Origin: a virus
DNA: 34,953 nucleotides
Reading direction: 5' to 3' (one strand)
IMG/VR virus record: IMGVR_UViG_3300024999_000255
Location: 1 to 34,953 of that record
Part shown: positions 3,354 to 22,372 of the stretch, piece after piece
How positions within the stretch are numbered: the stretch's first letter is position 1
Layout of the letters: the number at the start of each line of letters is the position of its first letter
Program-made: the position numbers and the translations under genes
Notes under the pieces: model-generated
What the model saw: only the letters and a program-made list of their open reading frames with translations
The model's database searches: none
What the model was told of the DNA's origin: nothing

Positions 3354-4463
3354 ATGGCTTTGAATCAAATTAAAGAAGAAAAGAAAAGAAAGTTAAAATC
3401 AGCCCCCTGGCTTAATAGAAGTAATCCTATGAGTACATATAATGAAGAGGGTAAGCCAATAACGCTGAATCAAACTCCTCGTATAATTAATGCAATTGAT
3501 AATTTAAAAAATACAGCAGAATATAGAAAAAGTATTAATGATCCTACAAAAGCTTTTAGTGCAGAAGCTTCTACTAATGAAAAAAACAATTTAAAATTTA
3601 TTAATTCTCATCCTGATAGAGTTGGTCAAGGAACGAGAATAGTTGAAAGAAATGTGTTACCATCAGTAAATACTTTACAAACTGAAAGTCCTAAAATAAA
3701 TGAAACTCCTAATGTCCAAAGAGATGCAGAGTTAGGTAAAATGACTGTATCAACTGATGGCGATACAACTACTTATGATATTGGTGAAAATACTCTTTCG
3801 TATAAAGGCGCCAAGGGTAAGATTAATTTACGAAATATAAATCAGCAAGCAGATAAGCAGCAACCTACTTGGGATGATTATTTTAATCAGCAAGCAGCAA
3901 GAAGAGATACTCTTCGTGGTAGATTCTTTGGAGTAAATCCAATAACTACAGAAGAGCCTAGTGATGATAGTATGGGTGGATTGTTTGTAAGAGGTATTCA
4001 AAGTAGAAAAGATAGGGCTGATTCACAAATAGAAAATGCTGAAGCAGAACAAGAGGTTAATCGTGCAAATTTTCTTTCTACTTTAGATCGTAATCAGATT
4101 GCAAGGGATCAACTTTCTCTTGATGCAGATAAGAATCGGATAGATGAGCAGGAAGTTATTGCAGAAAATAAATTGCGAGATATTCAGGGAGAGGTATTGC
4201 AAAATCCTCCAATTAATGAAAATCCATTAAAGCCCTTGGTAATTGAAGAACCAGATCCAAATGATCCTACTGGGATGACCAAGAGACAAGTAATTAAAAT
4301 GCCAAATGCTGAAGGCACAGGATATGTTGATAATATGCCAACAGCAACTACTACACCACAAGTTACTCCTGAACAAAGAACTAAGATTAATGCATTGATT
4401 AAATCTAATCCAAACATTACTAGAGAAGTTATTCTTCAGAAAATCGCTAATGGAGAAATATGA
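3354..4463 (+). CDS. hydrophilic, probably disordered putative virion protein
   Basis: The protein is 369 aa, with GAGG 7 bases before the ATG. It is highly charged, rich in N, K, E, Q and T, and contains almost no hydrophobic core segments. A helical stretch around residues 215-285 (rich in E, N and R) could form a coiled coil. No catalytic motif is recognised. It ends with ATG overlap into the giant gene (stop at 4461-4463, next ATG at 4460), so the two are coupled. Small hydrophilic proteins directly before a giant polyvalent protein are often internal virion proteins or scaffolds. The function stays unassigned. Confidence 0.5.
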   Translation: MALNQIKEEKKRKLKSAPWLNRSNPMSTYNEEGKPITLNQTPRIINAIDNLKNTAEYRKSINDPTKAFSAEASTNEKNNLKFINSHPDRVGQGTRIVERNVLPSVNTLQTESPKINETPNVQRDAELGKMTVSTDGDTTTYDIGENTLSYKGAKGKINLRNINQQADKQQPTWDDYFNQQAARRDTLRGRFFGVNPITTEEPSDDSMGGLFVRGIQSRKDRADSQIENAEAEQEVNRANFLSTLDRNQIARDQLSLDADKNRIDEQEVIAENKLRDIQGEVLQNPPINENPLKPLVIEEPDPNDPTGMTKRQVIKMPNAEGTGYVDNMPTATTTPQVTPEQRTKINALIKSNPNITREVILQKIANGEI

Positions 4464-7400
4464 TGGATGATTTTGATAAGATGTTTGGAGTTAGTAATGA
4501 AGATGAACCAGACGAATTTGACAAGATGTTTGGTGCTGTCGAGTCAGTAAAAAGCTCTGCTCCAACACCTGCTTCAACTGATTCTGATTTTATTCCTGGA
4601 GTCCAGAGAGGCCTTCAGAATCTTCAAGCATCTGCATATGGTGCTACTGCTCTTGCAGGATCAGGATTGAAAAAGCTTGGGATTGAATCTGCTGGTCAGG
4701 CTGTGCAAGACTTTGGCATGGAGGGCTATAACAGAAATATTGAAGAAGCCAAACAGTATCCTAAAAAGCATTCATTTAAAGAAGTAGCTTTTGGTAAAGC
4801 AGGAATTGGTGGTGCTATTGACTGGGCACAAGGAACCTTAGGTGAACTTGTTCCAAGTATGGCTGAAGCTGCGATCGGTGCTGGTATAGGATCTGTTGTA
4901 GCTCCTGGTCCAGGTACTGTTGCCGGAGGTTTGGCAGGTAGAACAATTCTTAAAAAAGGAATTGATGAAGCGGTCAAGAAGGCAATTAAAAGTGGAATTG
5001 GTGACTTAACCGAAGATCAGGTAAGGAAGCAACTTACTGGCCAAACCCTGAAGAAGTTTGGGGGCAAAGTTGGTATTGCCGGATCAGTTATGCCATTAGA
5101 ATCTGGTGGAATGTATGCGGAGTTGTTACAGGAAAAAGGTATTGATGCTCCTGAGACTGCCTTGCTGTTTGGGGCTCTGGCAACCTCATTAGAATTTGCT
5201 GGTGGTAACAGTAAGTTAGTTGATACTTTTGTTGATGCCCTAAGTAAGGGAGCAACTGGAACTGTTAAGAAATCAGCAAAAGAGTTGCTTACAAATATTC
5301 CTCAAGAAGCTCTGCAAGAAGGTGGGCAAGAATTGCTGAGTGTTCTTAATATTGTAGCGAATACAGATGAGAAGCTGTTGACTGCTGATAATGTTGAACG
5401 TATTATTGAGAGTATGGCTGCTGGTGCGATTGGTGGTGGTGCTGGTGCAGTAGTTAATGCGGGCTTCTCCGCGCAAGCAAAAGATCCTGGACCTGGAAAG
5501 ACTGATGCAGAGATTGAGCTTGACAGGCGAGCAGCAAACATTCTCAATCTGAAAGAAGATGAACTTGGTCAAAGCATCCAAACTTTAAATGATGCCCTCA
5601 AGTTGAATAAAGAAATTCTTGATGACCCTTATAAACTTGATCAGAAAGCAAGAGAGTTAAATGTTGATCCGGCTGAATTAATTAGAAAGACTGTTGAGGA
5701 TAATAAAAATAATCAAAGTCTCCTGGATCGGATTAATTCTGGAATCCAAAAGAAAGAAGAACTGGCTAAGAAGGAATATGAAGCTCTTTCTCCTGAAGAG
5801 AAGCAAGCAAAAGAGATTGAAAATAAATTAACTGAGAAAAGAATTGCTGATGCAAGCCAGCTAAATGAAAGGATTACAAATATTGACAACGAGATTACAA
5901 CTCTCTCTGAACAATATAATAGTAAGTTTGATCCTTATGCATTAGCTGCTAAGACATCACCAAGTGCAGAAGAAAGAAAAGTAATTGAAGATAAACTTAT
6001 TACATTGAACAAAAGGCGTAATGAGTTACTTGATAAAGAAACGCCTGAGGTTAAGAAGGCCTTTGCTCCATATACTACTAGAGATGGTAGGCAGAAATAT
6101 CTTGAGGAACTTTTTGGGACTGTTAATGTAGGAGAGAAGGTTGGAATAGAAAAAGATGCTGCTGAATCTGCGGAGGTTATAGAAAGTGAAATAGTACCAA
6201 AATCTATAGCTGATTATGCAAATCAAATAATTGCAAATAAGTCTCAGGAGAGATCAGCTTTAAATGAGCCAGCAAAATCAAGAACTCCTGAAGAAGAACA
6301 TAATCTAAGACAAATTGAAGATTATGTAAATTATATAAAGACATATATAAATAATAGTTTTACTCCTGAAGAAAGAAGTATTATTGAAAATTATTGGCAA
6401 GGTGTTAAAAAGGAATTGAATCTTCGCCAGGAAGAAATGACTCCTGGGACGGAAGCATTCATGAGGAAGAAATTCTTTGAGACACAACTTGCTAATATTG
6501 AAGGTAATGTTAAAAGTGATACAGCAACTCAAAGTGACGCAAAGCAAAATGTTGTTCCATCTTTAGCTGAACAGAATAAACGCCAGGCTTGGTTTCGTCA
6601 AATTGCTGAAAGTCTTGGAGATGTTCCACCAGTAAATAGGCAGGCAGTTGAAACTGAGATTCCTAGAAACTTGCCTGGAGGTTTGCCGAGTGGGTTCACT
6701 AATGAACAGCAAGTAGGTGTGGTTCCACAGTTTCAAGTAGCCGAAAAGCAAGAAGCATTAAGTAAAGTAAATCTTGAAGACATTAAGAAAACCTTTCCAA
6801 ATCAGACAATTAATCAACATGAGGATGGTTCAGTATATGTTCAGTTCAAGAATGGAAAAGGCGTAAAGATTAACAGTATTCAAAATGCTGGCGAAGGCTT
6901 CATTAAGTTAGCAATTGAAACTGGGCAGATGTCCAAAGGTCAAAGTATCCTTGGCATTACGATCGGGAATGAAATCCTACTTGATGAAAACTTTGCAGAC
7001 AATAAGACTCTTTGGCATGAGAACAAGCATGTCCTTGACAACCTGGGGCTGATTACAGAAGCAGATGACAGCGCATTGAATAAAGAGTTTAATAAACTTC
7101 GCAAAGCAGGAAAACTTGAATTTGCTCTCAGTACTCATGAAAATCCAAAGCAGAGGATGGTTGAAAATCGTGCGAACATGTTTGCTCAGATCATGGTCAA
7201 TCGAGAAGCATATCGGAGCACTGCTTTCGGTAAAGTGATCCAGCGAGTAATGGACTTCTTCCAGCAATTGTTTAGCTTTGGTCGGCAAACTGTATCTGGG
7301 CTGGCTCGTGAAGTAGAAAGTGGAAAGATTTATGAGCGTCAAGTTAATGGGCAGATTGTTCAAGTTACTGTTCCTCAGGCTGAAGAAGTAGCAAGTAAGT

Positions 7401-10400
7401 GGTACTCAGCACTTGAGAATGCAGTTGCTGGATTTAACCAGAAGCAAGCAACACCTGATCAATGGAAAGGAATGATTAAGAACTTTCCTGGACTTAAGCA
7501 GGATGAACTTGATTGGGTTGGTGTGAATGATTGGCTTGATAAGCAGGAAGGAAAAGTCAGTCAGGCAGACTTGTTGAAGTTTGTTCAGGAAAATAATGTT
7601 CAGCTTGAAGAAGTTGTGAAGGGAGAACAAGATATAGTAAATAAAATAAATGAAGAGTTAAAACCACTAGGGTATAGTTATGAAGAAGAATATGGTGATT
7701 GGTCTTTATTAGATGAAAATGGTGAGCTTGTTGAAGATGAAGATATTCCTAATGAAGTACATTCTATTATAAATGATGTTCATAATTTTGATCTTAATGG
7801 AGAAACTCAGCATTCTACTTATCAACTTCCAGGTGGAAAGAATTATAAAGAACTTTTATTAACTTTACCAACTAAAGATAATGTAATAGAACAAAAAATT
7901 AAAGAGTTTAAATCTTTAATGACACAAAAATATAACGTCATTGGTATGAATATTTGGGACGTTATGAATGAAGAAGAAACTAATCATTTAGCTAATCTTG
8001 ATTCTCAAACAAAAAAAGCTGATTACAAATCAAACCATTGGGACGAACCAAACATCTTAGCTCACATCAGATTCAATGAACGAATTGATGCATATGGAAA
8101 TAAAGTTCTTTTCCTTGAAGAAATTCAAAGTGACTGGCATCAGGCAGGAAAGAAGGAAGGTTATCAAGGAAATGCAACTTCTTTATTTAATTCCATAAAA
8201 GATTTTGCAGATAAGCATAATATTAAAATTCGTGCTGAAGAAGGTGATTATTTACCTGTACGTGAATATAAGCAACTTTTAGATAAAATTATAGAAGTAA
8301 AAGATATTAATATGGGGCAAATACTTGCTGAATATCATAATGATCCAAAGCAATCTTATGGTGTTCCCAATGCTCCATTCAAGAACTCTACTCAGTGGTC
8401 TCTCCTTGCCATGAAGCGAATGGTCAGGTATGCTGCTGAGAATGGTTTTGATAAAATTGCATGGACAACTGGACAGCAACAGTTTGATCGGTATGCTCAA
8501 GGCACTGAAGAAGAACAAGCTAAAAGACTTCATGGTATGCAAGAATTTTATGATAAGATTATTCCGAATACTTTTAATGCAGAGTTCAATAAGAACAAGT
8601 GGGGGAATGCGAAGGTTGAACAAATTAATATAAATCCATTTGAAAGTAATGAAAAAAATACAAATGGAATGCTATGGAAAAATCTCCCATCTCCAATAAT
8701 AGTTAACGCTATTCCAATCACTAACCGCATGAAATCTAAGGCACTCCGTGAAGGTATGCCGATGTTCGAGGTTCGTGAAGCCCCAACTCAGAAGATTAGC
8801 GATGATGAATATCAACAACGATATAAAGATAAGAATAATATAGTTCGTAGAATTGGGAAGACTCTTCACATGCGGGCTAGTGAAGTTAAGCAGTTTATAG
8901 ATAAATTTGGAGGCTCATCCTATACAAGATTGTTAAATGTAGATAAGCAACTTGCAATGGAGTATAGAAATATAGATATTAAAACAGCCAAAGAAATTAC
9001 TCATGCCCTTAAAGCAGCACATCCATTGTTAGAAAAAATTAAGTTAATGAGTAAAGCAGATCAATTTATTTGGAATGAGGCTACTCAATCAGCAGATAAA
9101 ATTAAGATTGAAAAGTTAGCCACTAAATATAATATGATTAATGAATGGCAAGAAGTTAGAAAAGTTTTAGATCAAATACATAAAAATGCTGAAGATGTAG
9201 GTTATAAAGTTGGCTATATAGAAGAATATTGGCCACGAATAATTAAAGATGTTGCTGGATTTTTACAAGCCACTAAAGATATATCTAACCAACCAGAATT
9301 TAGTAATCTTTTAGATAAGGAAGCTGCAAAGATTGGATTGGATAAAGAAAATTTTATTCGTAACTATCCAGAAAGAGCAGCAGATTTGATTAGTCATAAA
9401 ATTCTTAATCCTGGTTTTGGTATTGGAGGCCCAGGCAACATTCAAGCAAGAAAGTATGATATTGTTGATAAAGATTTAGCTCAGTTTTACATGGATAGTA
9501 ATGCTGCATTAATGAGCTATATCTATAGCATGACTAAAAAAATAGAAGCTAGAAAATTCTTTGGAAAAGTTCCTCCGAGAATAGCTGGCCTTAAAGCAGA
9601 TAGGTCACGTAAAGAATCAAGAATTAGAGAACTGGAATTGGTTGCTAAAAATGCACGCGATATTAATCCATCAGAAGCAGCTATAGCTAATAAGACAATA
9701 GATGATTTGTCTGGAGAATTAATTCAAATCGAACAAATTTTAGATGAATACAAATATCAGGATCGCGATTATACTGAAAATATTGGAGCATATGTAACAG
9801 AAAAAATCTTATCAGGAGAATTAAATCAAGATCATGAACATATGGTTAAGGAAATTCTACATGCTAGGTTTAACGAACATGGAACAACTGGCTTAGTTAC
9901 TGCCTTTAAGAATGCATCTTACATTGATGTATTGGGATCACCACTAGCAGCTGTAACTCAGATTGGTGATCATGCTTGGGCGATGTATGTAGCTCAAGTC
10001 TGGACACCTAAAGGACTGGCTAACTATATTAAAAATGCTGCAAAAGCTACAAGTGGGCAATTTAAAACTACTAAGAAACTATTTGGTGGATCAGAAATTA
10101 CAAAAGAAGATCTATACTTGGATCGAATAGCTCAAGAATTTGCAGATGGAACCACTTTAAGCAATGCCGTAAGTTGGGTTTTTAGAAAAGTTGGTCTTGA
10201 AAAAATGGATTCAATCGGCAAAGAGACATTAATTAACGTAGCTCATGATCGCTATAAACAAATGGCTAGTTCAGATGCAGGAAGAGCAAAATTAATGACA
10301 CAGCTTAAGCCAATTTTTGGTCCTTCCTCAGAGTCAGTAATTAATGATTTGCTCTCAAATAATCCTAGTGATAATGTAAAGATGTTATTGTATCATAAGG

Positions 10401-11272
10401 TGTTGGACTTTCATCCAGTAGCATTATCTTCAATGCCTACACCATACTTAAATGGTGGAAATGGTAGAGTGGCTTATATGCTCAAGACATATACTATTCA
10501 ACAGTTTGATGTTTTCCGTAGAGAAGCTTGGCACAATATGAAGAATGGTTATATGAATGCTCAAGAAAACGGATATAATGAGAATAATAAAGCACAAATT
10601 ATTGAAGGTATAACTAATATGGTTAAGCTGGCTAGTTTATTAGTGCTTGCTAATGCTGGTGCGGATGAGATTAAAGATTGGATGTTAGGGAAAGAAACAA
10701 AGTTTAGTGATAATGTAATTGAGAATTTTTTAGTTCTTGGTGGAGCTTCTAGATATATTAGAACTAAAGTTAGTCAAGAGGGGATAGGCAGTGGAATTGC
10801 TAGTCAATTAATGCCCCCATTTAGATTTTTTAATTCTGCTACTAAGGATGTAGGAGAAACTTATGATAATTATATAGCTGGTGATACAATGAACTTTAAT
10901 CATGCTAGAATAATTGAATCTATACCAGGACTGGGTAAGTTGTATTATTGGCATTGGGGAAGAGGAGCTGACTATAAGAAGAGTGACAACGAGCAAGAAT
11001 TTAGTAAGATTGGAAAAGAGGTAAAGCTATTCAAGAGGCAGCTTGAAAATTCTGAAGACAAACGAACTTTCTTGAATTCAAACCTGAATGGCTTCAAGCA
11101 AATGAAATTGCATGAAAATTTTCAAAGTGCTCTCAATCGAAATCAGGCAGTAATTAATAAGTTGAAAAAGATTGAACAGACAACAAATGTTCGGGAAAGG
11201 CTTGGACAATTGCAGCAGCAACGAGAGGTGATATTGAAAAGATATTTTGACATAACAAATACGGTGCAGTAA
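4460..11272 (+). CDS. giant polyvalent/ejection-type virion protein with HENKH metallopeptidase motif
   Basis: The protein is 2270 aa. It opens with two copies of a short acidic motif (DFDKMFG at residues 4-10, EFDKMFG at 19-25). A glycine/alanine-rich, glycine-zipper-like hydrophobic region follows (about 85-160 and again 315-335), then long charged helical segments (about 350-700). An HExxH zinc-peptidase motif, HENKH, lies at 853-857. A segment with WYSALENAV and later QLEEVV (about 978-1055) and a block with LEEIQSDWHQ, WSLLAMKRMVRYAAENGF and TTGQQQFDRY (about 1215-1345) resemble modules I know from large phage polyvalent proteins. The C-terminal ~450 residues are helical with hydrophobic stretches. 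Such proteins are usually packaged and injected with the DNA. Membrane insertion (glycine zipper) and proteolysis of host or virion protein are plausible roles. It is the last gene before the terminator. Confidence 0.75.
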   Translation: MMDDFDKMFGVSNEDEPDEFDKMFGAVESVKSSAPTPASTDSDFIPGVQRGLQNLQASAYGATALAGSGLKKLGIESAGQAVQDFGMEGYNRNIEEAKQYPKKHSFKEVAFGKAGIGGAIDWAQGTLGELVPSMAEAAIGAGIGSVVAPGPGTVAGGLAGRTILKKGIDEAVKKAIKSGIGDLTEDQVRKQLTGQTLKKFGGKVGIAGSVMPLESGGMYAELLQEKGIDAPETALLFGALATSLEFAGGNSKLVDTFVDALSKGATGTVKKSAKELLTNIPQEALQEGGQELLSVLNIVANTDEKLLTADNVERIIESMAAGAIGGGAGAVVNAGFSAQAKDPGPGKTDAEIELDRRAANILNLKEDELGQSIQTLNDALKLNKEILDDPYKLDQKARELNVDPAELIRKTVEDNKNNQSLLDRINSGIQKKEELAKKEYEALSPEEKQAKEIENKLTEKRIADASQLNERITNIDNEITTLSEQYNSKFDPYALAAKTSPSAEERKVIEDKLITLNKRRNELLDKETPEVKKAFAPYTTRDGRQKYLEELFGTVNVGEKVGIEKDAAESAEVIESEIVPKSIADYANQIIANKSQERSALNEPAKSRTPEEEHNLRQIEDYVNYIKTYINNSFTPEERSIIENYWQGVKKELNLRQEEMTPGTEAFMRKKFFETQLANIEGNVKSDTATQSDAKQNVVPSLAEQNKRQAWFRQIAESLGDVPPVNRQAVETEIPRNLPGGLPSGFTNEQQVGVVPQFQVAEKQEALSKVNLEDIKKTFPNQTINQHEDGSVYVQFKNGKGVKINSIQNAGEGFIKLAIETGQMSKGQSILGITIGNEILLDENFADNKTLWHENKHVLDNLGLITEADDSALNKEFNKLRKAGKLEFALSTHENPKQRMVENRANMFAQIMVNREAYRSTAFGKVIQRVMDFFQQLFSFGRQTVSGLAREVESGKIYERQVNGQIVQVTVPQAEEVASKWYSALENAVAGFNQKQATPDQWKGMIKNFPGLKQDELDWVGVNDWLDKQEGKVSQADLLKFVQENNVQLEEVVKGEQDIVNKINEELKPLGYSYEEEYGDWSLLDENGELVEDEDIPNEVHSIINDVHNFDLNGETQHSTYQLPGGKNYKELLLTLPTKDNVIEQKIKEFKSLMTQKYNVIGMNIWDVMNEEETNHLANLDSQTKKADYKSNHWDEPNILAHIRFNERIDAYGNKVLFLEEIQSDWHQAGKKEGYQGNATSLFNSIKDFADKHNIKIRAEEGDYLPVREYKQLLDKIIEVKDINMGQILAEYHNDPKQSYGVPNAPFKNSTQWSLLAMKRMVRYAAENGFDKIAWTTGQQQFDRYAQGTEEEQAKRLHGMQEFYDKIIPNTFNAEFNKNKWGNAKVEQININPFESNEKNTNGMLWKNLPSPIIVNAIPITNRMKSKALREGMPMFEVREAPTQKISDDEYQQRYKDKNNIVRRIGKTLHMRASEVKQFIDKFGGSSYTRLLNVDKQLAMEYRNIDIKTAKEITHALKAAHPLLEKIKLMSKADQFIWNEATQSADKIKIEKLATKYNMINEWQEVRKVLDQIHKNAEDVGYKVGYIEEYWPRIIKDVAGFLQATKDISNQPEFSNLLDKEAAKIGLDKENFIRNYPERAADLISHKILNPGFGIGGPGNIQARKYDIVDKDLAQFYMDSNAALMSYIYSMTKKIEARKFFGKVPPRIAGLKADRSRKESRIRELELVAKNARDINPSEAAIANKTIDDLSGELIQIEQILDEYKYQDRDYTENIGAYVTEKILSGELNQDHEHMVKEILHARFNEHGTTGLVTAFKNASYIDVLGSPLAAVTQIGDHAWAMYVAQVWTPKGLANYIKNAAKATSGQFKTTKKLFGGSEITKEDLYLDRIAQEFADGTTLSNAVSWVFRKVGLEKMDSIGKETLINVAHDRYKQMASSDAGRAKLMTQLKPIFGPSSESVINDLLSNNPSDNVKMLLYHKVLDFHPVALSSMPTPYLNGGNGRVAYMLKTYTIQQFDVFRREAWHNMKNGYMNAQENGYNENNKAQIIEGITNMVKLASLLVLANAGADEIKDWMLGKETKFSDNVIENFLVLGGASRYIRTKVSQEGIGSGIASQLMPPFRFFNSATKDVGETYDNYIAGDTMNFNHARIIESIPGLGKLYYWHWGRGADYKKSDNEQEFSKIGKEVKLFKRQLENSEDKRTFLNSNLNGFKQMKLHENFQSALNRNQAVINKLKKIEQTTNVRERLGQLQQQREVILKRYFDITNTVQ

Positions 11273-11279
11273 CAAGAAA

Positions 11280-11322
11280 GCCAGAACCTACGAAACATTG
11301 TGGGTTCTGGCAATTTTGTTTT
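11280..11322. terminator. bidirectional rho-independent terminator between convergent transcription units
   Basis: A 12-bp stem (11280-11291 with 11300-11311, one G-T wobble, outer part GCCAGAACC/GGTTCTGGC) closes an 8-nt loop. It is followed on the + strand by AATTTTGTTTTA. On the - strand the same stem is followed by TTTCTTGTT. It sits between the stop of the giant + strand gene and the stop of thyX on the - strand, as expected where two operons converge. Confidence 0.9.
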
Positions 11323-12184
11323 ATAAAAACTCTTCCCAAGGCATCATATTCATTACTCGTTGCATATCTGGATGAGCAGATTTTGATGTTCGTAGCTTCC
11401 TGATATGCGCCCATTCAGCAGCATCTGCTGTGACCACGATCTCGGTCTTCAGAGCATTGGGCAGGACGGCCCGGGCTTGTTGAGGTTTGAGGTTTTCTTC
11501 AAGAAGTTGTCTATAAGTATCTTCTGCATTCTCGCATAATTGCCAAAACATACTTTGAGCAAACCAATCCCAAGCTTCAAATCCATTTGGCTCAATAAAC
11601 TCCATGTTCTTGCCGCCGTAGTTCACATACCTGGTTGATTCCTGAGCAAAGCTGCATGGTCTGTGCCGAACCAATTCATGACTGACTCCACGATCACAAA
11701 TGAACTTGGCGCTGTACCTGTGGAGTTCCTTGGGGATTTCGTCATGAGGGCAAATTTCCCAAGATGACTGCAACGCCAGCATGCTTTGATCAAACAATGC
11801 TCCATATAATTCTACAAAGGGCATAAGCACTGCAGCGTATCTAATTTCCATAGTTACTTGCGCCCATGCTGTTAAACTACCGCCTACATAGATATAATTT
11901 TTCCATACTTTAACATTAATATATTTTCCTAACTGTTCTGTCATTAATGCAATATATGCAGGAGTGAAATTGTTATTAGCTCGTACCACAAAATTCGAAT
12001 GCTCAACCATAGCCAGATGCCCAGCCTTGATCAGCTTCTTGACAAACCCTTCTGCACTATCTTCAGTAATCTTGTCTTCTGACTTATAGCAAGTTCTTCC
12101 TGCCATCTCAATGAACTTAAGGGCAGCATTATATTCTGTAGGTACTGCTCCAAAGAATTCTACTGATGGTTTGATGATTTTCAT
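11321..12184 (-). CDS. thyX: flavin-dependent thymidylate synthase ThyX
   Basis: The protein is 287 aa. ThyX makes dTMP from dUMP using FAD, NADPH and methylenetetrahydrofolate. The signature RHR-x2-S-x4-STRY is at residues 173-186, preceded by a basic/aromatic helix with SHELV. An N-terminal segment containing the Cys-Tyr-Lys-Ser of a typical ThyX flavin pocket (31-35) and HLAMVEHSNF (56-65) also fits. The ATG at 12184 overlaps the upstream stop (ATGA) and has GAGGAG 6 bases before it, which fixes the start. It is the last gene of the leftward cluster and stops in the T-run of the bidirectional terminator. In the Z-genome model it would supply the thymidylate that pairs with aminoadenine. 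Phage thyX is common and is not itself diagnostic. Confidence 0.96.
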   Translation of the reverse strand: MKIIKPSVEFFGAVPTEYNAALKFIEMAGRTCYKSEDKITEDSAEGFVKKLIKAGHLAMVEHSNFVVRANNNFTPAYIALMTEQLGKYINVKVWKNYIYVGGSLTAWAQVTMEIRYAAVLMPFVELYGALFDQSMLALQSSWEICPHDEIPKELHRYSAKFICDRGVSHELVRHRPCSFAQESTRYVNYGGKNMEFIEPNGFEAWDWFAQSMFWQLCENAEDTYRQLLEENLKPQQARAVLPNALKTEIVVTADAAEWAHIRKLRTSKSAHPDMQRVMNMMPWEEFL

Positions 12185-12399
12185 ATTTTCTCCTCATGAT
12201 GTACACAGCCAAATTTTGGACCAGTCCAGAAATCACCACCTTCAGAATAAGAATATACCAAAGCATCCACTTTGTAACTATTACTCCCCCAATCCTCACA
12301 GAGTTTTTCGTGTGTGCATTCCCCTCCGATTATAGCATCGTCTAAAGCATATTCTCTATGTGGAAACTTCCAGTGTTTGCATGTTTCACAGTAGTTCAT
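12181..12399 (-). CDS. small Cys-rich hypothetical protein
   Basis: The protein is 72 aa, beginning MNYCETCKHW. I chose the ATG at 12399 because GGAG lies 10 bases upstream and the previous gene stops at 12404; the ATG at 12420 would overlap that gene. Cysteines occur as C-x2-C near the N terminus, then two more spaced about 25 and 31 residues later, and a final C-x-H-H. This suggests a zinc-binding fold as seen in many small phage proteins of unknown role. It overlaps thyX by 4 bases (ATGA), so the two are coupled. Confidence 0.7.
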   Translation of the reverse strand: MNYCETCKHWKFPHREYALDDAIIGGECTHEKLCEDWGSNSYKVDALVYSYSEGGDFWTGPKFGCVHHEEKI

Positions 12400-12403
12400 A
12401 ATA

Positions 12404-12676
12404 TCATTCTCCATCTTCATGAGCTAAAGCTGTTATTAAATCATTATACAAATCCTCTCTGGGATCAATTATAAAATCTTTTGCTATTTCTTCTCTCTTT
12501 GGTCTATTCATTAACTGTGCTTTTATTTTAGATAAAACTTGTATCTGATAATTGAGAACTTTAATCTTTTCCTTAATTGAAATTATACTAGCCTCTGTTA
12601 AGTTTTTATGAAGAAATTCTCGAAGCAACGGAGCATTAATATTTGCTTGATCAAGTGTTTTCAGATGTGATTTCAT
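12404..12676 (-). CDS. hypothetical helical protein
   Basis: I place the start at the ATG at 12676 (protein MKSHLKTL..., 90 aa) because AAGGA lies 8 bases upstream. The longer frame reaching 12745 has no comparable site. It overlaps the 3' end of the preceding small gene (stop at 12651) by 26 bases. The protein is mostly helical and charged, with a Leu/Ile heptad-like stretch (about residues 20-55) that could form a coiled coil. It ends DALxH-EDGE-like. No family is recognised. Confidence 0.6.
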   Translation of the reverse strand: MKSHLKTLDQANINAPLLREFLHKNLTEASIISIKEKIKVLNYQIQVLSKIKAQLMNRPKREEIAKDFIIDPREDLYNDLITALAHEDGE

Positions 12677-12845
12677 TATTAGTTCCTTCAACGATTTTAA
12701 TACAATCTTTAATTGCCTGTATGGTGGCGGCAGCTGTAACTCCATTAGGAATTATTACGTTGGCTGCATCTCTAGTTGGTTCGTTTTCACGATCAAGTAA
12801 GAAGGCTTGGAGTTTTTGCAACACGTTATTTTTGAAGTTAGGCAT
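12651..12845 (-). CDS. small hypothetical protein with hairpin-borne ribosome site
   Basis: The protein is 64 aa with an N-terminal charged helix, an NVIIPNGVTAAAT segment and a second short helix. No recognised domain. The Shine-Dalgarno GGAGG lies in the loop of a perfect 6-bp hairpin (12852-12868), about 10 bases from the ATG, so translation may be controlled by RNA structure. It lies between the small genes that separate the PurZ homologue from thyX. Confidence 0.6.
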   Translation of the reverse strand: MPNFKNNVLQKLQAFLLDRENEPTRDAANVIIPNGVTAAATIQAIKDCIKIVEGTNNEITSENT

Positions 12846-12851
12846 TTTTAT

Positions 12852-12868
12852 TACACCCTCCAGGTGTA
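12852..12868 (-). promoter_or_regulatory. hairpin presenting the ribosome-binding site of the 64-aa gene
   Basis: On the transcript strand TACACC and GGTGTA form a perfect 6-bp stem around a 5-nt loop, and the loop plus first stem base contain GGAGG, the ribosome site of the gene starting at 12845. This resembles a small translational operator. No known binding protein is recognised. Confidence 0.45.
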
Positions 12869-12878
12869 GTTAATCACT

Positions 12879-13103
12879 TCAAGTTTTGCATGGAACTTCT
12901 GGCTCAACAGAATTACCAGTTTTAATTACAGTTTGTTTTGCAGCCTTAGGAAAAGCTTTAACAATTTTCTTCTCTGTTATATGTCCAAGTGCAGCATTCA
13001 ATCTTTTGATCATTCCAGCCAGCCAGTCTCCATGAGATTTGAATTGCAATAATTCGCATTCGTCTAGAGCATTTTGTAAATCTAGTTCAGTTAGTTTTTT
13101 CAT
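12879..13103 (-). CDS. hypothetical protein downstream of purZ
   Basis: The protein is 74 aa from the ATG at 13103; a TTG at 13118 is an alternative but has no better ribosome site. The start lies inside the 3' end of the purZ frame (17-base overlap), so expression is probably coupled to purZ. The N-terminal two thirds are helical (ELDLQNALDECELL, then a Trp-containing helix), and the C-terminal third is basic with KAFPKAAKQTVIK. I see no catalytic motif. Because it is coupled to purZ it is a candidate accessory of that step, but that is inference. Confidence 0.6.
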   Translation of the reverse strand: MKKLTELDLQNALDECELLQFKSHGDWLAGMIKRLNAALGHITEKKIVKAFPKAAKQTVIKTGNSVEPEVPCKT

Positions 13104-14013
13104 AAGGTGTTTTAACAAACTCTTTTATTGATGAACCAAAGCCAAAAAGATTAAAATTGTATTGATCATTTAATGTATTTAACTCTTTTGATGAAATATA
13201 ATCACAATGATTTAAAACAAGATGCGTTGGTTGATTAATCTTTATTGCACTATTGACAAGTTCATATTGAAACCCTCCTACTCTTCTAACTCGTTTTGTT
13301 ACTGTAGTGTATTCTTCTGGTTTATTTAATTCCTGCCAAGAAGTTTCTTCTTCTAATGGTCCAGATTTTCCAGCAACTCTTATAGCTTTTGTTCTGCAGA
13401 CTAAAACAATTGTATCTACTGTTAATGGACTTATTCCAATTTCTGAAAGATACGATGCAGCTGTTGTATCACGAGATGTTACATATGGATAATGTGGAGA
13501 ATGATGAAGGGATAATCCAAATCCTTGAGTTCCTTCAATTATTAATCTTTTAGCAGAATGCATGATATCTATTGTATCTGCTATGTAAGGTTTAAGCTCT
13601 TTAAGGTCTTTTGCAAATATAATTCTATTACTTCTTAACAATTTATTTATCAATGCTGCTCCAGTACCAGAACAAGTTGAAGAAATTGATTTAAAATTAT
13701 TAAGTTCAAATGTTATATCTGTTCTATCAATACATACAGCTTTTGGATCTATAAATACTTTGCCTGGAATGTTTTTAATTTCTTGCAAAACTTTAATTGG
13801 ATCAATAAAGCTTCCAGCAGAAATTATTGAAACGGCTCCAGATAAAGAAGCTCCAGGAAAGTTATTAAAAACTAATCCTTCAACTGTATGTCCAGAGTTT
13901 ATTCCTCCAGATCTAACAACTACATCTGCATTTTGTTTCTTAGCAAAGTATAAGGCTGTTTTACCCTTGCCTTCAGATCCATATTGCCCTCCTACAACAA
14001 TAGTTGCTTTCAT
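13087..14013 (-). CDS. purZ: PurZ, N6-succino-2-amino-2'-deoxyadenylate synthase (adenylosuccinate synthetase family)
   Basis: The protein is 308 aa starting MKATIVVGGQ. The ATG at 14013 has AAGGA 9 bases upstream and follows the previous stop; an in-frame ATG at 14037 would lack this. The PurA-family P-loop reads GQYGSEGKGK (residues 9-18), with Ser13 where PurA has its catalytic Asp13. NSGHTVEG (39-46) keeps the catalytic His. TCSGTGAA (113-120), IEGTQG (159-164), YPYVTS (175-180), RRVGG (243-247) and a C-terminal NHCD (268-271, NKxD-like) match later PurA motifs. At 308 aa it is much shorter than bacterial PurA (about 430), as expected for phage PurZ. PurZ condenses dGMP with aspartate using ATP, and host PurB then releases dZMP. 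Known family facts are from memory, and activity is inferred. Confidence 0.9.
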   Translation of the reverse strand: MKATIVVGGQYGSEGKGKTALYFAKKQNADVVVRSGGINSGHTVEGLVFNNFPGASLSGAVSIISAGSFIDPIKVLQEIKNIPGKVFIDPKAVCIDRTDITFELNNFKSISSTCSGTGAALINKLLRSNRIIFAKDLKELKPYIADTIDIMHSAKRLIIEGTQGFGLSLHHSPHYPYVTSRDTTAASYLSEIGISPLTVDTIVLVCRTKAIRVAGKSGPLEEETSWQELNKPEEYTTVTKRVRRVGGFQYELVNSAIKINQPTHLVLNHCDYISSKELNTLNDQYNFNLFGFGSSIKEFVKTPYEKTN

Positions 14014-14026
14014 TAATTTATCCTTA

Positions 14027-14362
14027 TTAGTTTTCATGCTTAACTATCTTAGCAAGTTCTTGTTCTTTCTCACTCAACTTTGCATAAAGCATTCCTGCAT
14101 AGTGTGCAATCTTTAACAGATCAAGCATCTGTTGGCCTTCCCTAGAGTTTTTTCCATAACGATTTAGATATTTTTTCATCTGGGTGATAAAGTCAGCCTC
14201 GCTAAATTCAGAGCATTGATCATGACCTTTATCTCCGTATTGTGGAACTGTGTAAGATTCAATATGATTGTACACTCTTTTACTAAATTTTGACCATTCG
14301 ATTGCACGTAATGAAGGAATAGGTTCGTAATCTTCTTCTGATGGACAAGGATCAATTTGCAT
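14027..14362 (-). CDS. conserved phage-type hypothetical protein
   Basis: The protein is 111 aa with motif YTVPQYGDKGHDQC (residues 37-50), then KYLNRYGKNSREG and LLKIAHYAGMLY. I recognise this arrangement (PQYGD, YLNRxGK-R, DLLKIAHYA) from small conserved proteins of many phages that lie near nucleotide-metabolism genes. I know of no established function. It ends 13 bases before the purZ start, so it is in the same operon. The C terminus is charged and helical. Confidence 0.7.
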   Translation of the reverse strand: MQIDPCPSEEDYEPIPSLRAIEWSKFSKRVYNHIESYTVPQYGDKGHDQCSEFSEADFITQMKKYLNRYGKNSREGQQMLDLLKIAHYAGMLYAKLSEKEQELAKIVKHEN

Positions 14363-17009: not shown

Positions 17010-19532
17010 TTAAAAACCTATCTTTTCAATAGCTTTATCACATTCTTCTTGAGTGAACTTACTGATCTCAGCCGTATTGCCAGCCCATTGGGTGCCTATC
17101 TTAGCATCCAAGCCAATAGTGAAACTCTTTCCCTTGTAAGTAAATGTGTGTGTCAAATGGTCTTTAATGATAAGAAGAATTTGAGGCAAGTTTATAATCT
17201 GATTTTTGTGAAACCTAAATACGAATGAATCATGAACAGTTGTCATACACCGAATGTCAAAGCCATCTTTGCCGAGCCGAGGATCATTCACTACCTTTAT
17301 CATTCCACGATTGAGCAACTCAGCTACAGTTGATTGAGGCTTGTAGCTATAGGCATTTCTGAATAGTGCTGCATTCATTTCACCTAAGAACCTGCGAGGC
17401 CGGCCAAATAAGTTGTAGAGAACTCGATTCTTTTGAACCTCTTCTTCGATTGATCTGTGCCAGCGTTTCAATCCAGGAAAGCGGTCAGAATAACTATCAA
17501 GTAATCGTTTGCATTCTGACTGTGATTTGAAAATTTCCTCCGCCGCTAGATTGTCAGAGAATGTCTGTGGGCCCATTGCATAGTTCGAGGCATGAACAAC
17601 CTTCTTGCCCATGTAACGCATGGTAGATTTCTGATCAGCCTTTTTAGTTTTAGCCTCATGAATTACTTCTTCAATTGAAACATTGAATATCTTGCTTGCA
17701 TTAAAGCTATGCACGTCAATTCCGGATTCGAATGACTGGATCATGTTAGCATCTTGAGTAAGATATGCAACTACATGAGCCTCAGCCTTAGCAAGATCAC
17801 ATTCGCAGAGAATCCAATCTGGATCAGCAATGAGATAATATTTAAAAACATATGGCTGATTCTGAAGGTTCGATCCAGTACCAAAATAAGTCTTTTCTGT
17901 AGCAATCCTGCCGGAAACTGTACCCGAGATTTTATGGTTACAACGGAGACGCTTATCATCATCGACTTGAATATTAAAGTATGTAGATACGAGCTTTTGG
18001 TACTTACGAATCTTTATTATGATTCTAGCTTCTTCAGAACCTTTAACATCTTTCTTTGCAATTCTGTGAAGGGCTACAGTATCACAGGTGACTGATCCAG
18101 TTTTGCGATTCACATATGGTTTAATCATACAAGTGCCGTAGAAGTATGCGACCATTTGTTTCGCTGAACCTGGATTAATTTCCTTGCCTGCAAGTTTATT
18201 CAGCTCTGCTTGAAGCTCAATCAGTTTGATTTCATACTCAGATTTGATCTTTTCAATTCCATCTGTGTCAGTCAAGATGCCATTGAATTCCATTTCTATG
18301 AGCGGCTTATGGAGGTTCATTGTATAATCCATAGCATCCATAGAATCGAATTCACCTAACTCTTCAAGAAGCTTCTCAGTTATTGGCAATAAGTATGCTG
18401 AGTCTTTGGCATTATAAGTCCAGTATTGTGGCCAGTTTTTAATAGCCTTAAGGTGTGATTGCTTACCTTCGTCTTTGTAATATGGAAAGTATGTGTAGGT
18501 TGAAGTTAGGTAATCAAGACCTTTCGGGAGTTCAGTATAGCAGATGTGTTGTGCAAGCATTGTATCAAAATAAAAGTTATCTGTTTTAATCATCATAGTA
18601 CGGAAAGTAAACATGATGTCGAACATTCCATTTTGACAAATTTTACCTATGGCTTCATCATTAAGTATTTCGGCTAGGCCAGTCCAGATTTTTATCTCTT
18701 CTGCTGTTTCCCAATAATTGCCTTGGTTGTTCATTAGAGGAACAGACATGGATAGAATCTTGTTATCATGATAAACTGCCAAAGAATAGCAGGTAATAAA
18801 TTCTGGCGTAGCTTCAATATCAAAAGCTACATATTGCTTTGTCTTAATCAATGCATAGAACTGCATGATTTCTTCAAAGCTAGGCTTGATTTTTATTTCT
18901 ACATTATCGGTGAGCAATTCTGGATCTTCAATGATTCGTAGGGCTTTTGTAAAGTCTGCAATCATTGTATAGAAGTGGATAGGCTGTCCGTATGGGAGGG
19001 TGAAAGATGGATGATAAGACAAACCTATTATCTTGCCAGCCAGTTTGTCTTTCAAATGAGGAAAGTCTTCAGCGTGGTAGAATGAGCCACGATATTTTGT
19101 GATTGAATCGAACTTAGGCTCGTCCAGCAAGAGTCGCATTGGAGTTGCCCCTAGCAACATTATGACTTTGCCGGGAAATTGAGCAAGTTCGTCAATTAAG
19201 GCTGCTTGCAACTTGCTCCAGTCTGGATGACGATAGCCTTTATCAGTCCATAAGACAGCGGTATTGTTTTTGGGAAACTTAGCTTTGCAAGCATTGGTGA
19301 GATAAATTTTATATCTAGCGAGTCTGACGGCTGCACAGATGCGATTAAGCTGAGAGCCTGTCGGACCTACGAATGGTTCGTTCTTCAGGACTTCTATCTC
19401 ACCTGGAGCTTCGCCAACCATTGCTATTTCAGCAGTGAGTATGTTATCAGTTGGAGCGCACTCTACAGCCAAGCAATTGAAAGAACCTTCTTTCTGCGGA
19501 GTTGCTGTAGTTGATATGCTTGGAATTATCAT
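17010..19532 (-). CDS. family A DNA polymerase with UDG-like N-terminal domain (candidate DpoZ)
   Basis: The protein is 840 aa. Residues about 30-200 resemble a family 4/5 uracil-DNA glycosylase fold: GEAPGEIE (40-47), PFVG-x2-G (53-59), TNACKAKFP (79-87) and YHPSF (173-177). The usual C-x2-C of the iron-sulfur cluster is not seen. The 3'-5' exonuclease is intact, with FDIEATPEF (Asp238, Glu240), NGMFDIMF (Asp305) and YNAKDSAY (Asp377). Polymerase motif A is CDLAKAEAHVVAYL (Asp579, Glu584). Motif B has R639, K643 and Y651, with His647 at the place of Phe762 of E. coli Pol I. Motif C is VHDSF (His767, Asp768). It is the replicative polymerase of this phage. PurZ context makes it a candidate aminoadenine-preferring DpoZ; sequence alone cannot prove preference. 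Confidence 0.9.
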   Translation of the reverse strand: MIIPSISTTATPQKEGSFNCLAVECAPTDNILTAEIAMVGEAPGEIEVLKNEPFVGPTGSQLNRICAAVRLARYKIYLTNACKAKFPKNNTAVLWTDKGYRHPDWSKLQAALIDELAQFPGKVIMLLGATPMRLLLDEPKFDSITKYRGSFYHAEDFPHLKDKLAGKIIGLSYHPSFTLPYGQPIHFYTMIADFTKALRIIEDPELLTDNVEIKIKPSFEEIMQFYALIKTKQYVAFDIEATPEFITCYSLAVYHDNKILSMSVPLMNNQGNYWETAEEIKIWTGLAEILNDEAIGKICQNGMFDIMFTFRTMMIKTDNFYFDTMLAQHICYTELPKGLDYLTSTYTYFPYYKDEGKQSHLKAIKNWPQYWTYNAKDSAYLLPITEKLLEELGEFDSMDAMDYTMNLHKPLIEMEFNGILTDTDGIEKIKSEYEIKLIELQAELNKLAGKEINPGSAKQMVAYFYGTCMIKPYVNRKTGSVTCDTVALHRIAKKDVKGSEEARIIIKIRKYQKLVSTYFNIQVDDDKRLRCNHKISGTVSGRIATEKTYFGTGSNLQNQPYVFKYYLIADPDWILCECDLAKAEAHVVAYLTQDANMIQSFESGIDVHSFNASKIFNVSIEEVIHEAKTKKADQKSTMRYMGKKVVHASNYAMGPQTFSDNLAAEEIFKSQSECKRLLDSYSDRFPGLKRWHRSIEEEVQKNRVLYNLFGRPRRFLGEMNAALFRNAYSYKPQSTVAELLNRGMIKVVNDPRLGKDGFDIRCMTTVHDSFVFRFHKNQIINLPQILLIIKDHLTHTFTYKGKSFTIGLDAKIGTQWAGNTAEISKFTQEECDKAIEKIGF

Positions 19533-20146: not shown

Positions 20147-21577
20147 TCATAGACCTTCTACCTCAGCAGTTATCCCCAGATAATTTTCAAGTCTCTGGTA
20201 AAATTCTGGAATATACTTCTGGCTTTTATCACAACCAACTGGCATCATTTTTTCTTTAGCTGCACTAATTAAGCAATTGCCAGATCCTGCGAAGAGGCTC
20301 ATAAATAAAGTACCAGGTTTACCTAATGCTTTTAAGAAATGATCATAAAGTTCTATAGGCTTTTCCCACTGGTGAATTCGTTGAGAAGAACTGACTGTAC
20401 TTATGTTAATTGAAGATGACAAGCTAGGCGTATTAAACTGAGCATTGCCCTTACGCAGTAGTAAAAACATTTCCCAGTTGCTTACCATATTTGTCTTCGG
20501 CTTATTGGTACTGCCACCAACTTTGTTCCATGATCCAGGAGACTGAGTTCCAAATCCTATGTCTCTGGCAATGTTGTTGATCTGTAGAAAATGTTCTTTG
20601 CCTGTCCAGACTAAAGCCCAACTACAGTCAAGCATTTTCTCATAGACTAACGGAAGATAATTGAAATAAAAATCATAAAGTTCTTTTTCATCCCAATCTT
20701 GAGCTTTACATTCGATCTTATTCGTTTTACCATAATTGTCATTAAACTCAATCGCATAAGGAGGATCGAGTTCTACCATTCCTACAGAATTGCTTGGAAT
20801 CTTATCTAGGAAGGTCTTGTAGTTTTCAGCCACATAAATTACTTGAATACTAGAGCTGATTTGTTCTTGCTCATCGTTAAGGTCTTCATCATCTTCGTCA
20901 AACTCGGTAAGTTTTTCTTTGGCCTGCTTGGTTTTCTCAAACACATTCTGATTTACCGTATTTTTTATAGGTGCTGTCATGGTTCCGTTTTGCAACGCAA
21001 CTAAACGCCCTTTTTCAGCATCGGTAAAACTTCCCATTCGCTGAAGTGCCTTAGCTTGTTCACCAAGAGCTTTGTATGCTTCCTTAGCCCGGCCCTTAGT
21101 AGTCTGTTCTTTCAAGATTGGAAAGACTTTTAGAGCTTCAGCGAAAGCAAGATCAGTAGATAAGCCACCAAGACTGCACTTGAGCCTCTTGGCTGTTTCT
21201 CTGTAGCCCCAAGATTTACCTTCCTTGCCTGCGGCTTCAACCCAATAGTTGTGCAGCTTATACTTGAGGTCTATTTCCTCATGCCACAAGAATTCCTTGC
21301 GGTCCATATTACTAAGAAGTTCAATCAAGAAGTGATCGTCTTCAGTAATGCCGTCGAATACTCGGACTTCAATGGTTTCTTTGCCAAGTTTCTTAAAAGC
21401 CTCGATGCGATGCAAGCCATCGATTAATACGTTATTTGAATCTATGAGAATCGCATGAAGCTGGCCGACCATAGAGATTGAATCGGCTAGGCTGGAGATG
21501 TCACCAACTGCTGAACGTGCGCGGTCTTTGATGATAATGTCTGAGATATTTCTTTCTTCTATCTGAAATAATTGCAT
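20147..21577 (-). CDS. ParB-like domain fused to DPPY-type DNA methyltransferase
   Basis: The protein is 476 aa. The N-terminal ~80 residues are a ParB/Srx-like domain: DRARSAVGDISSLADSI, GQLHAILID, then DGLHRIEAFKKLG (53-65). A helical middle (about 95-240) includes an HTH-like region and an acidic linker (225-240). The C-terminal methyltransferase has DPPY (271-274, motif IV) before FAGSGN (429-434, SAM-binding motif I), so it is a beta-class amino-methyltransferase acting on N6 of adenine or N4 of cytosine. ParB-methylase fusions are common in phages and may protect DNA or act as anti-restriction. If adenine is replaced by aminoadenine here, the substrate becomes a question. It ends 3 bases before the Cys-rich micro-gene. 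Confidence 0.85.
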   Translation of the reverse strand: MQLFQIEERNISDIIIKDRARSAVGDISSLADSISMVGQLHAILIDSNNVLIDGLHRIEAFKKLGKETIEVRVFDGITEDDHFLIELLSNMDRKEFLWHEEIDLKYKLHNYWVEAAGKEGKSWGYRETAKRLKCSLGGLSTDLAFAEALKVFPILKEQTTKGRAKEAYKALGEQAKALQRMGSFTDAEKGRLVALQNGTMTAPIKNTVNQNVFEKTKQAKEKLTEFDEDDEDLNDEQEQISSSIQVIYVAENYKTFLDKIPSNSVGMVELDPPYAIEFNDNYGKTNKIECKAQDWDEKELYDFYFNYLPLVYEKMLDCSWALVWTGKEHFLQINNIARDIGFGTQSPGSWNKVGGSTNKPKTNMVSNWEMFLLLRKGNAQFNTPSLSSSINISTVSSSQRIHQWEKPIELYDHFLKALGKPGTLFMSLFAGSGNCLISAAKEKMMPVGCDKSQKYIPEFYQRLENYLGITAEVEGL

Positions 21578-21889: not shown

Positions 21890-22372
21890 TTATCTATGAT
21901 CTCCAGAACCACCTAGCTTGTTGCGTTCTTTACGATCAGCAAGTTTATTAATGTTCATTATTGCTATATCTTCAAGTGCTATTTCAAGGTCATAAGCTGT
22001 ACAAGCTACATACCACAAAACATCTCCAAGCTCTTTAGATATTTCAGCCTTATCAAGTAATGAAACAAGCCCATCTTTGTCACGATAAATCTTTTTGAGC
22101 TTACCTGCTACTTCACCAGCTTCATTGGCAAGTCCAAGAATGTGACAATCAAGAGCTTTGTCTGGTGGATAAATGTCAGTTGATTTTGCCAGGCTTTGAT
22201 ATTCATTGAAGGTCATCATATTATCCTTCGTCGGCTTAACTTCTTCACATTGATACCAATCAGAATAACTATCCTTACAAGATGTGTTCTGAAGACCATC
22301 TTTAGTACATACATGATCTGGTCCTCCATCATGCCAGTGCCATTTTCTGTATGGACAGCCCATATCGTTCAT
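21890..22372 (-). CDS. mazZ: MazG-like nucleotide pyrophosphohydrolase, candidate MazZ
   Basis: The protein is 160 aa. Residues about 53-160 are a MazG-like helical domain: NEAGEVAGKLKK (83-94; Glu84, Glu87), then SKELGDVLWYVACTAYDL (112-129; Glu114, Asp117), and the C-terminal KLADRKERNKLGGSGDHR typical of phage MazG-like proteins. ExxE and ExxD are the Mg-binding set. In Z-genome phages MazZ cleaves dGTP (and GTP) to the monophosphate, supplying dGMP for PurZ. An unusual N-terminal extension of ~50 aa has Cys6, Cys22, Cys32, Cys42 and several His/Trp, probably a metal-binding domain. The ATG at 22372 has GAGG 7 bases upstream; an internal Met at 52/53 would give the bare MazG domain. MazZ is inferred from PurZ in the same cluster; alone it would be called MazG-like. 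Confidence 0.8.
   Translation of the reverse strand: MNDMGCPYRKWHWHDGGPDHVCTKDGLQNTSCKDSYSDWYQCEEVKPTKDNMMTFNEYQSLAKSTDIYPPDKALDCHILGLANEAGEVAGKLKKIYRDKDGLVSLLDKAEISKELGDVLWYVACTAYDLEIALEDIAIMNINKLADRKERNKLGGSGDHR

Follow-up and report, generated by a model that had tools for sequence, protein, structure and literature searches.

A virus-encoded PurZ-like protein with a P-loop serine common to PurZ, PurZ0 and many cellular homologues

The purZ-like locus

The stretch of DNA analysed here (the window) is a virus record of 34,953 bases, which may be a fragment. On its minus strand, at 13087..14013, lies a purZ-like gene for a Ser-type adenylosuccinate-synthetase homologue of 308 amino acids plus stop, assigned from profile matches, a predicted model and fold matching. 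The open reading frame runs from an ATG at 14013 to its end at 13087 and its product begins MKATIVVGGQYGSEGKGKTALYFAKK; a second in-frame ATG, at 14037, would lengthen the product to 316 amino acids, but the start at 14013 is preferred because an AAGGA-like site lies upstream of it and a close relative, contig L004, starts at the same place. The product matches the Pfam model PF00709 at 126.7 bits and phrog_1211 of PHROGs ('2-aminooxy adenylosuccinate synthetase') at 217.4 bits, whilst its score against the NCBI PurZ model NF038379 (212.8 bits) falls under the cut-off of 300 for that model and is equalled by that against an archaeal PurA model (211.7 bits). Its C-terminus is shorter than those of other Ser-type proteins.

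Also encoded in the window are, on the minus strand, the thymidylate synthase ThyX (11321..12184, profile matches), a MazG-like nucleotide pyrophosphohydrolase (21890..22372, profile matches) and a DNA polymerase (17010..19532, profiles and alignment) that combines a UDG-like domain, a 3'-5' exonuclease and a family A polymerase with Tyr651 in helix O. At 20147-21577 lies a fusion of a ParB-like domain with a DNA methyltransferase that carries a DPPY motif. A single open reading frame of 2270 amino acids (4460-11272) gave patchy matches only, in four phage records. The type of thymidylate synthase has been swapped within one phage group: ThyA adjoins purZ in contig L007 (1633-3399), whereas the window (11321-14013) and L004 have ThyX.

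Ser13 and the Ser-type family

Residues 9 to 16 of the product (GQYGSEGK; window 13966-13989, minus strand) include Ser13, whose TCT codon (13977-13975, minus strand) is identified by alignments and residue counts as the equivalent of PurA Asp13: without gaps, it aligns to Asp13 of Salmonella PurA, to the corresponding Asp of Pyrococcus horikoshii PurA and to the Ser of phiVC8 PurZ. The original prediction, which placed a Ser at the PurA Asp13 position of a 308-residue product and held that the NSGH motif with its catalytic His is kept, was right on both points, the motif being present in the alignment as Asn39-Ser40-Gly41-His42 (13888..13899, minus strand); the check that it proposed, alignment with characterised PurZ, likewise found Ser of phiVC8 PurZ in the same column. 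A sequencing slip was considered and rejected, since all five contigs of this phage group, of which one is identical and the rest 80 to 94% identical, have Ser13.

To place this residue in context, 85 rows were aligned, drawn from viral contigs, phage records, cellular loci and Asp-type PurA proteins. Positions 13, 207 and 211 split the Ser-type from the Asp-type rows with zero exceptions: Ser, Arg and Ile occupy them in 74/74 Ser-type rows, as against Asp and Lys at the first two in 11/11 PurA rows and Thr or Ser at the third in the Asp-type rows (Arg207 and Ile211 codons of the window gene, 13381..13395, minus strand). These three residues distinguish the Ser-type family as a whole from PurA. 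Val213, by contrast, was rejected as a deoxyribose mark, PurA having Val there too. In a cellular scan that permitted Ser or Asp at site 13 and retained the most window-like rows, Ser stood at the Asp13 site in 79/79 cellular loci among the matches listed.

It had further been proposed that Ser defines phage PurZ, that PurZ0 keeps Asp, and that the window copy is consequently PurZ and not PurZ0. Whilst Ser is indeed a mark of the PurZ-type family, it is found equally in PurZ0 and in the cellular loci just described, and the remainder of the proposal fails. The P-loop of the PurZ0 crystal sequence (PDB 7VF6, 'The crystal structure of PurZ0') is GGQFGSEAKGR, and GSEAKG is likewise present in the PurZ0-type proteins of four actinophages, Urla, Goodman, Hiyaa and Archimedes. 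A survey by Poubanne et al. 2026, in which PurZ and PurZ0 are pooled, finds Ser in 100% of its 147 phage sequences (PMC12884076). Ser13 does not separate PurZ from PurZ0 and was rejected as a marker for that purpose; other diagnostic positions, and the tree described below, point away from a PurZ of the phiVC8 type. The P-loop Ser would readily suggest itself as a signature of Z-DNA phages, yet it spans a far wider family, and because this includes PurZ0 and many cellular proteins Ser alone can neither call a Z-genome nor sort PurZ from PurZ0. In the window Ser13 is real and important, yet ordinary for the Ser-type family.

Predicted structure

A model of the window protein, predicted from 30 related sequences, has a mean pLDDT of 92.8 and the adenylosuccinate-synthetase fold. 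Its best fold match is phiVC8 PurZ with dGMP and ATP (6FM1; Z 39.5, rmsd 1.9 over 305 residues), nearly tied with P. horikoshii PurA (Z 38.3), PurZ0 (Z 38.0) and S-2L PurZ (Z 37.7). A dGMP-bound PurZ is thus the closest match, but sorting by fold had to be rejected, PurZ, PurZ0 and P. horikoshii PurA all falling within Z 39.5 to 37.7; nor does the fold settle the substrate, because the Asp-type P. horikoshii enzyme matches nearly as well.

Published structures do place the Ser near the guanine 2-amino group, as had been anticipated: Ser23 of S-2L PurZ lies 3.7 Å from the 2-amino nitrogen of dGMP, a distance that its authors consider too far for a hydrogen bond but compatible with guanine (PMC8342488). 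The residues listed for the base pocket of that enzyme are Y21, G22, S23, N49, T132, Q190 and V241 (PMC8342488), for which the alignment gives Y11, G12, S13, N39, T113, Q163 and V213 as the equivalents in the window protein.

Phylogenetic placement and competing assignments

In a tree built with column 13 removed, all Ser-type rows still form one clade (support 100/96), with the short archaeal Asp-type PurA proteins just outside. Within it PurZ (100/99), PurZ0 (100/100) and a group of cellular kinase-fused proteins (100/100) each form a clade of their own. The window clade is separate from those of PurZ and PurZ0; it joins cellular proteins at 99/92 (23 rows), inside a third group of mixed cellular and viral rows (100/96). 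Sequence identity to the window protein is 38-49% for the cellular rows, with PurZ0 at 33-39% and PurZ at 29-37%. The marks K18, H171, T183, E191 and H269 are common to the window protein and the cellular group, compared with one mark held in common with PurZ and two with PurZ0. Cellular Ser-type paralogues, among them those of Mariprofundus (L102), Latescibacterota (L103) and Bradyrhizobium (L111), have K18, T183, E191, H269 and D271 as the window does, and are its nearest neighbours in the tree outside its own phage group.

Were the window protein instead a Ser-type PurZ of the phiVC8/S-2L kind, set off from PurZ0 by its Ser and serving a full Z-genome, its Ser13, its NSGH motif and its PurZ-like Asn268 would all be expected, as would the place of PurZ among the best structural matches; phiVC8 PurZ (PDB 6FM1, DgsS) and S-2L PurZ (7ODX) share with it the fold, the Ser at the Asp13 site, the base-pocket residues and the His42 motif, and an approximately unbiased (AU) test did not reject its grouping with PurZ (p 0.175). 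However, the Ser is present in PurZ0 as well, the tree keeps the window clade apart, and the window protein lacks Thr14 (9/10 phiVC8-type PurZ rows; Glu14 in the window, codon 13972..13974, minus strand), Phe266 (10/10) and Asn271 (10/10). Furthermore, queries with phiVC8 DatZ and MazZ-2 found no match in the window, itself perhaps a fragment, or in contigs L003-L007, and the window polymerase is without the Phe characteristic of DpoZ. We consider this assignment unlikely.

An enzyme of PurZ0 type, using GTP, is in our estimation no more probable. The P-loop of the window protein (GGQYGSE) resembles that of PurZ0, the actinophage enzymes (7VF6; Urla, Goodman, Hiyaa and Archimedes) having Ser13-Glu14, Asp271 and the fold in common with it; its top phage BLAST identities are Arthrobacter PurZ0-type proteins at 38-39%, and grouping with PurZ0 was again not rejected (AU p 0.076). 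The PurZ0 clade nevertheless excludes the window, whose Lys18 and Thr183 are unlike every PurZ0 row, and whereas dutZ occurs in every surveyed PurZ0 genome (PMC12884076), a scan of window proteins over the 35 kb of this possibly fragmentary record turned up neither a dUTPase-like/DutZ nor a DmtZ-like gene.

That the protein might be a short phage PurA making ordinary adenylosuccinate from IMP, with an incidental Ser, is very improbable, for although the archaeal PurA model scores the same as the PurZ model and P. horikoshii PurA (PH0438, PRK04293 family) is a close fold match that shares the short form without the bacterial PurA insertions, Asp13 is 99% conserved in PurA according to a published survey (PMC12884076) and the trio of Ser13, Arg207 and Ile211 seen in the window, in place of Asp13, Lys207 and Thr/Ser211, occurs in 0/11 Asp-type rows.

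We therefore favour, as not proven because the AU test rejects neither the PurZ nor the PurZ0 grouping, a placement of the window copy in a third Ser-type branch that is common with bacterial chromosomal and plasmid genes. The novelty would lie in a phage copy placed in this third, largely cellular branch, and is favoured to the same degree. Taking all observations together, we assign a probability of about 0.7 to the reading of the window protein as a PurZ-like dSMP synthetase of the third Ser-type branch, with Ser13 as a family mark and GTP as candidate donor.

Proposed chemistry

On the preferred reading the window enzyme would be a PurZ-like succino-amino-deoxyadenylate synthetase, in which O6 of dGMP is activated by a nucleoside triphosphate and then condensed with aspartate to give dSMP; this dGMP-to-dSMP chemistry is predicted as likely by analogy with characterised PurZ. 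By analogy with the family, host enzymes would convert dSMP to dZMP and dZTP, and replacement of the general base Asp by Ser13 would remove a carboxylate facing the guanine 2-amino group. The MazG-like enzyme may supply the dGMP, possibly from dGTP.

The identity of the phosphate donor may be considered from the base-binding segment His269-Cys270-Asp271 (13201..13209, minus strand, by alignment). At the last of these positions Asp is found in PurA, in PurZ0 and in nearly every cellular row, in contrast to Asn in 10/10 PurZ rows. The PurZ donor site is described as carrying Asn or Gln, said to clash with a 2-amino group (PMC8342488). One sentence of Poubanne et al. 2026 on ATP/GTP preference appears to have its order swapped, the introduction of the same paper giving ATP for PurZ (PMC12884076); we take PurZ to be ATP-using because the S-2L and phiVC8 structures agree in this (PMC8342488). 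Since the window enzyme also has Asp at this site, its predicted phosphate donor is GTP in preference to ATP.

Bearing on a Z-containing genome

The observations do not establish complete Z substitution in the genome of the window phage. Change of the helix-O Tyr to Phe is the sole residue change common to both DpoZ clades (PMC8599892). At this site the window polymerase has Tyr651, compared with Phe in phiVC8, and so bears no DpoZ mark. Phage S-2L replicates Z-DNA without DpoZ, however, so that Tyr651 does not rule out Z. No contig of the window group gave a match to partner genes from known Z clusters or from the cellular cassettes described below. In contig L029 (562-5385), which is viral and belongs to the third group, purZ is followed immediately by a dUTPase-family gene and the polymerase bears the DpoZ Phe; for these reasons the third group is compatible with Z-DNA.

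The DPPY motif is usual for adenine methylation, and the ParB-methyltransferase of the window would be odd if Z replaced all adenine. The nearest named relative of the polymerase is that of Desulfofustis phage LS06-2018-MD01 (31.8%); the whole 44-kb record of this phage contains no PF00709 gene, and purZ therefore looks like an accessory gene there.

Cellular relatives and their gene cassettes

Most of the 16 cellular genomes checked encode a full-length canonical Asp-type PurA beside the Ser-type copy; in two of the 16, G003 and G009, a canonical PurA was not seen. A gene of the DCD-like (dCTP deaminase/dUTPase superfamily) type lies within 5 kb in 34/40 short Ser-type loci, nearly always directly downstream, and several of these loci also contain a deoxynucleoside kinase; neither gene was found in the contigs of the window group. 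In Mariprofundus (L102:5964-10718) the full arrangement comprises an upstream RNase_H_2/AAA (RNase-H-like/kinase) gene, the Ser-type PurZ-like gene, the DCD-like gene and a deoxynucleoside kinase, and the same cassette recurs at L103, L104, L105 and L107.

A second cassette consists of an M78 peptidase, a P-loop kinase-PurZ fusion, a DUF7002 gene and sometimes a deoxynucleoside kinase (L131:6057-10276). Amongst the 39 kinase-fused loci, which fall between L128 and L180, the DUF7002 gene is downstream in 34/39 and the M78 peptidase upstream in 21/39; the cassette is also present in L272. The M78 peptidase scanned as an example matches the CapP model of PADLOC. Both cassette types are present on conjugative rhizobial plasmids, and 90 plasmid records match the Mariprofundus protein, canonical PurA possibly being among the matches.

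The function of the cassettes is a matter of hypothesis only; a search of the open-access literature yielded nothing relevant on the cellular cassettes, DUF7002 or PurA-like defence. Tentatively, and with the odds somewhat against it, bacteria and archaea could have dZ-nucleotide pathways of their own, the conserved cassettes making 2-amino nucleotides that serve the cell, perhaps in defence; the window phage would then have its gene in common with that pool and not with the known Z-genome phages. The third branch and the cassettes raise two testable questions, namely whether cells make 2-aminoadenine deoxynucleotides and whether phage PurZ genes derive from a cellular source. Beside cellular Ser-type genes there also occurs a family of approximately 250 amino acids that starts MQ[ND]RY.GD and has no Pfam match, at 19 loci including L117:9050-9811 (minus strand).
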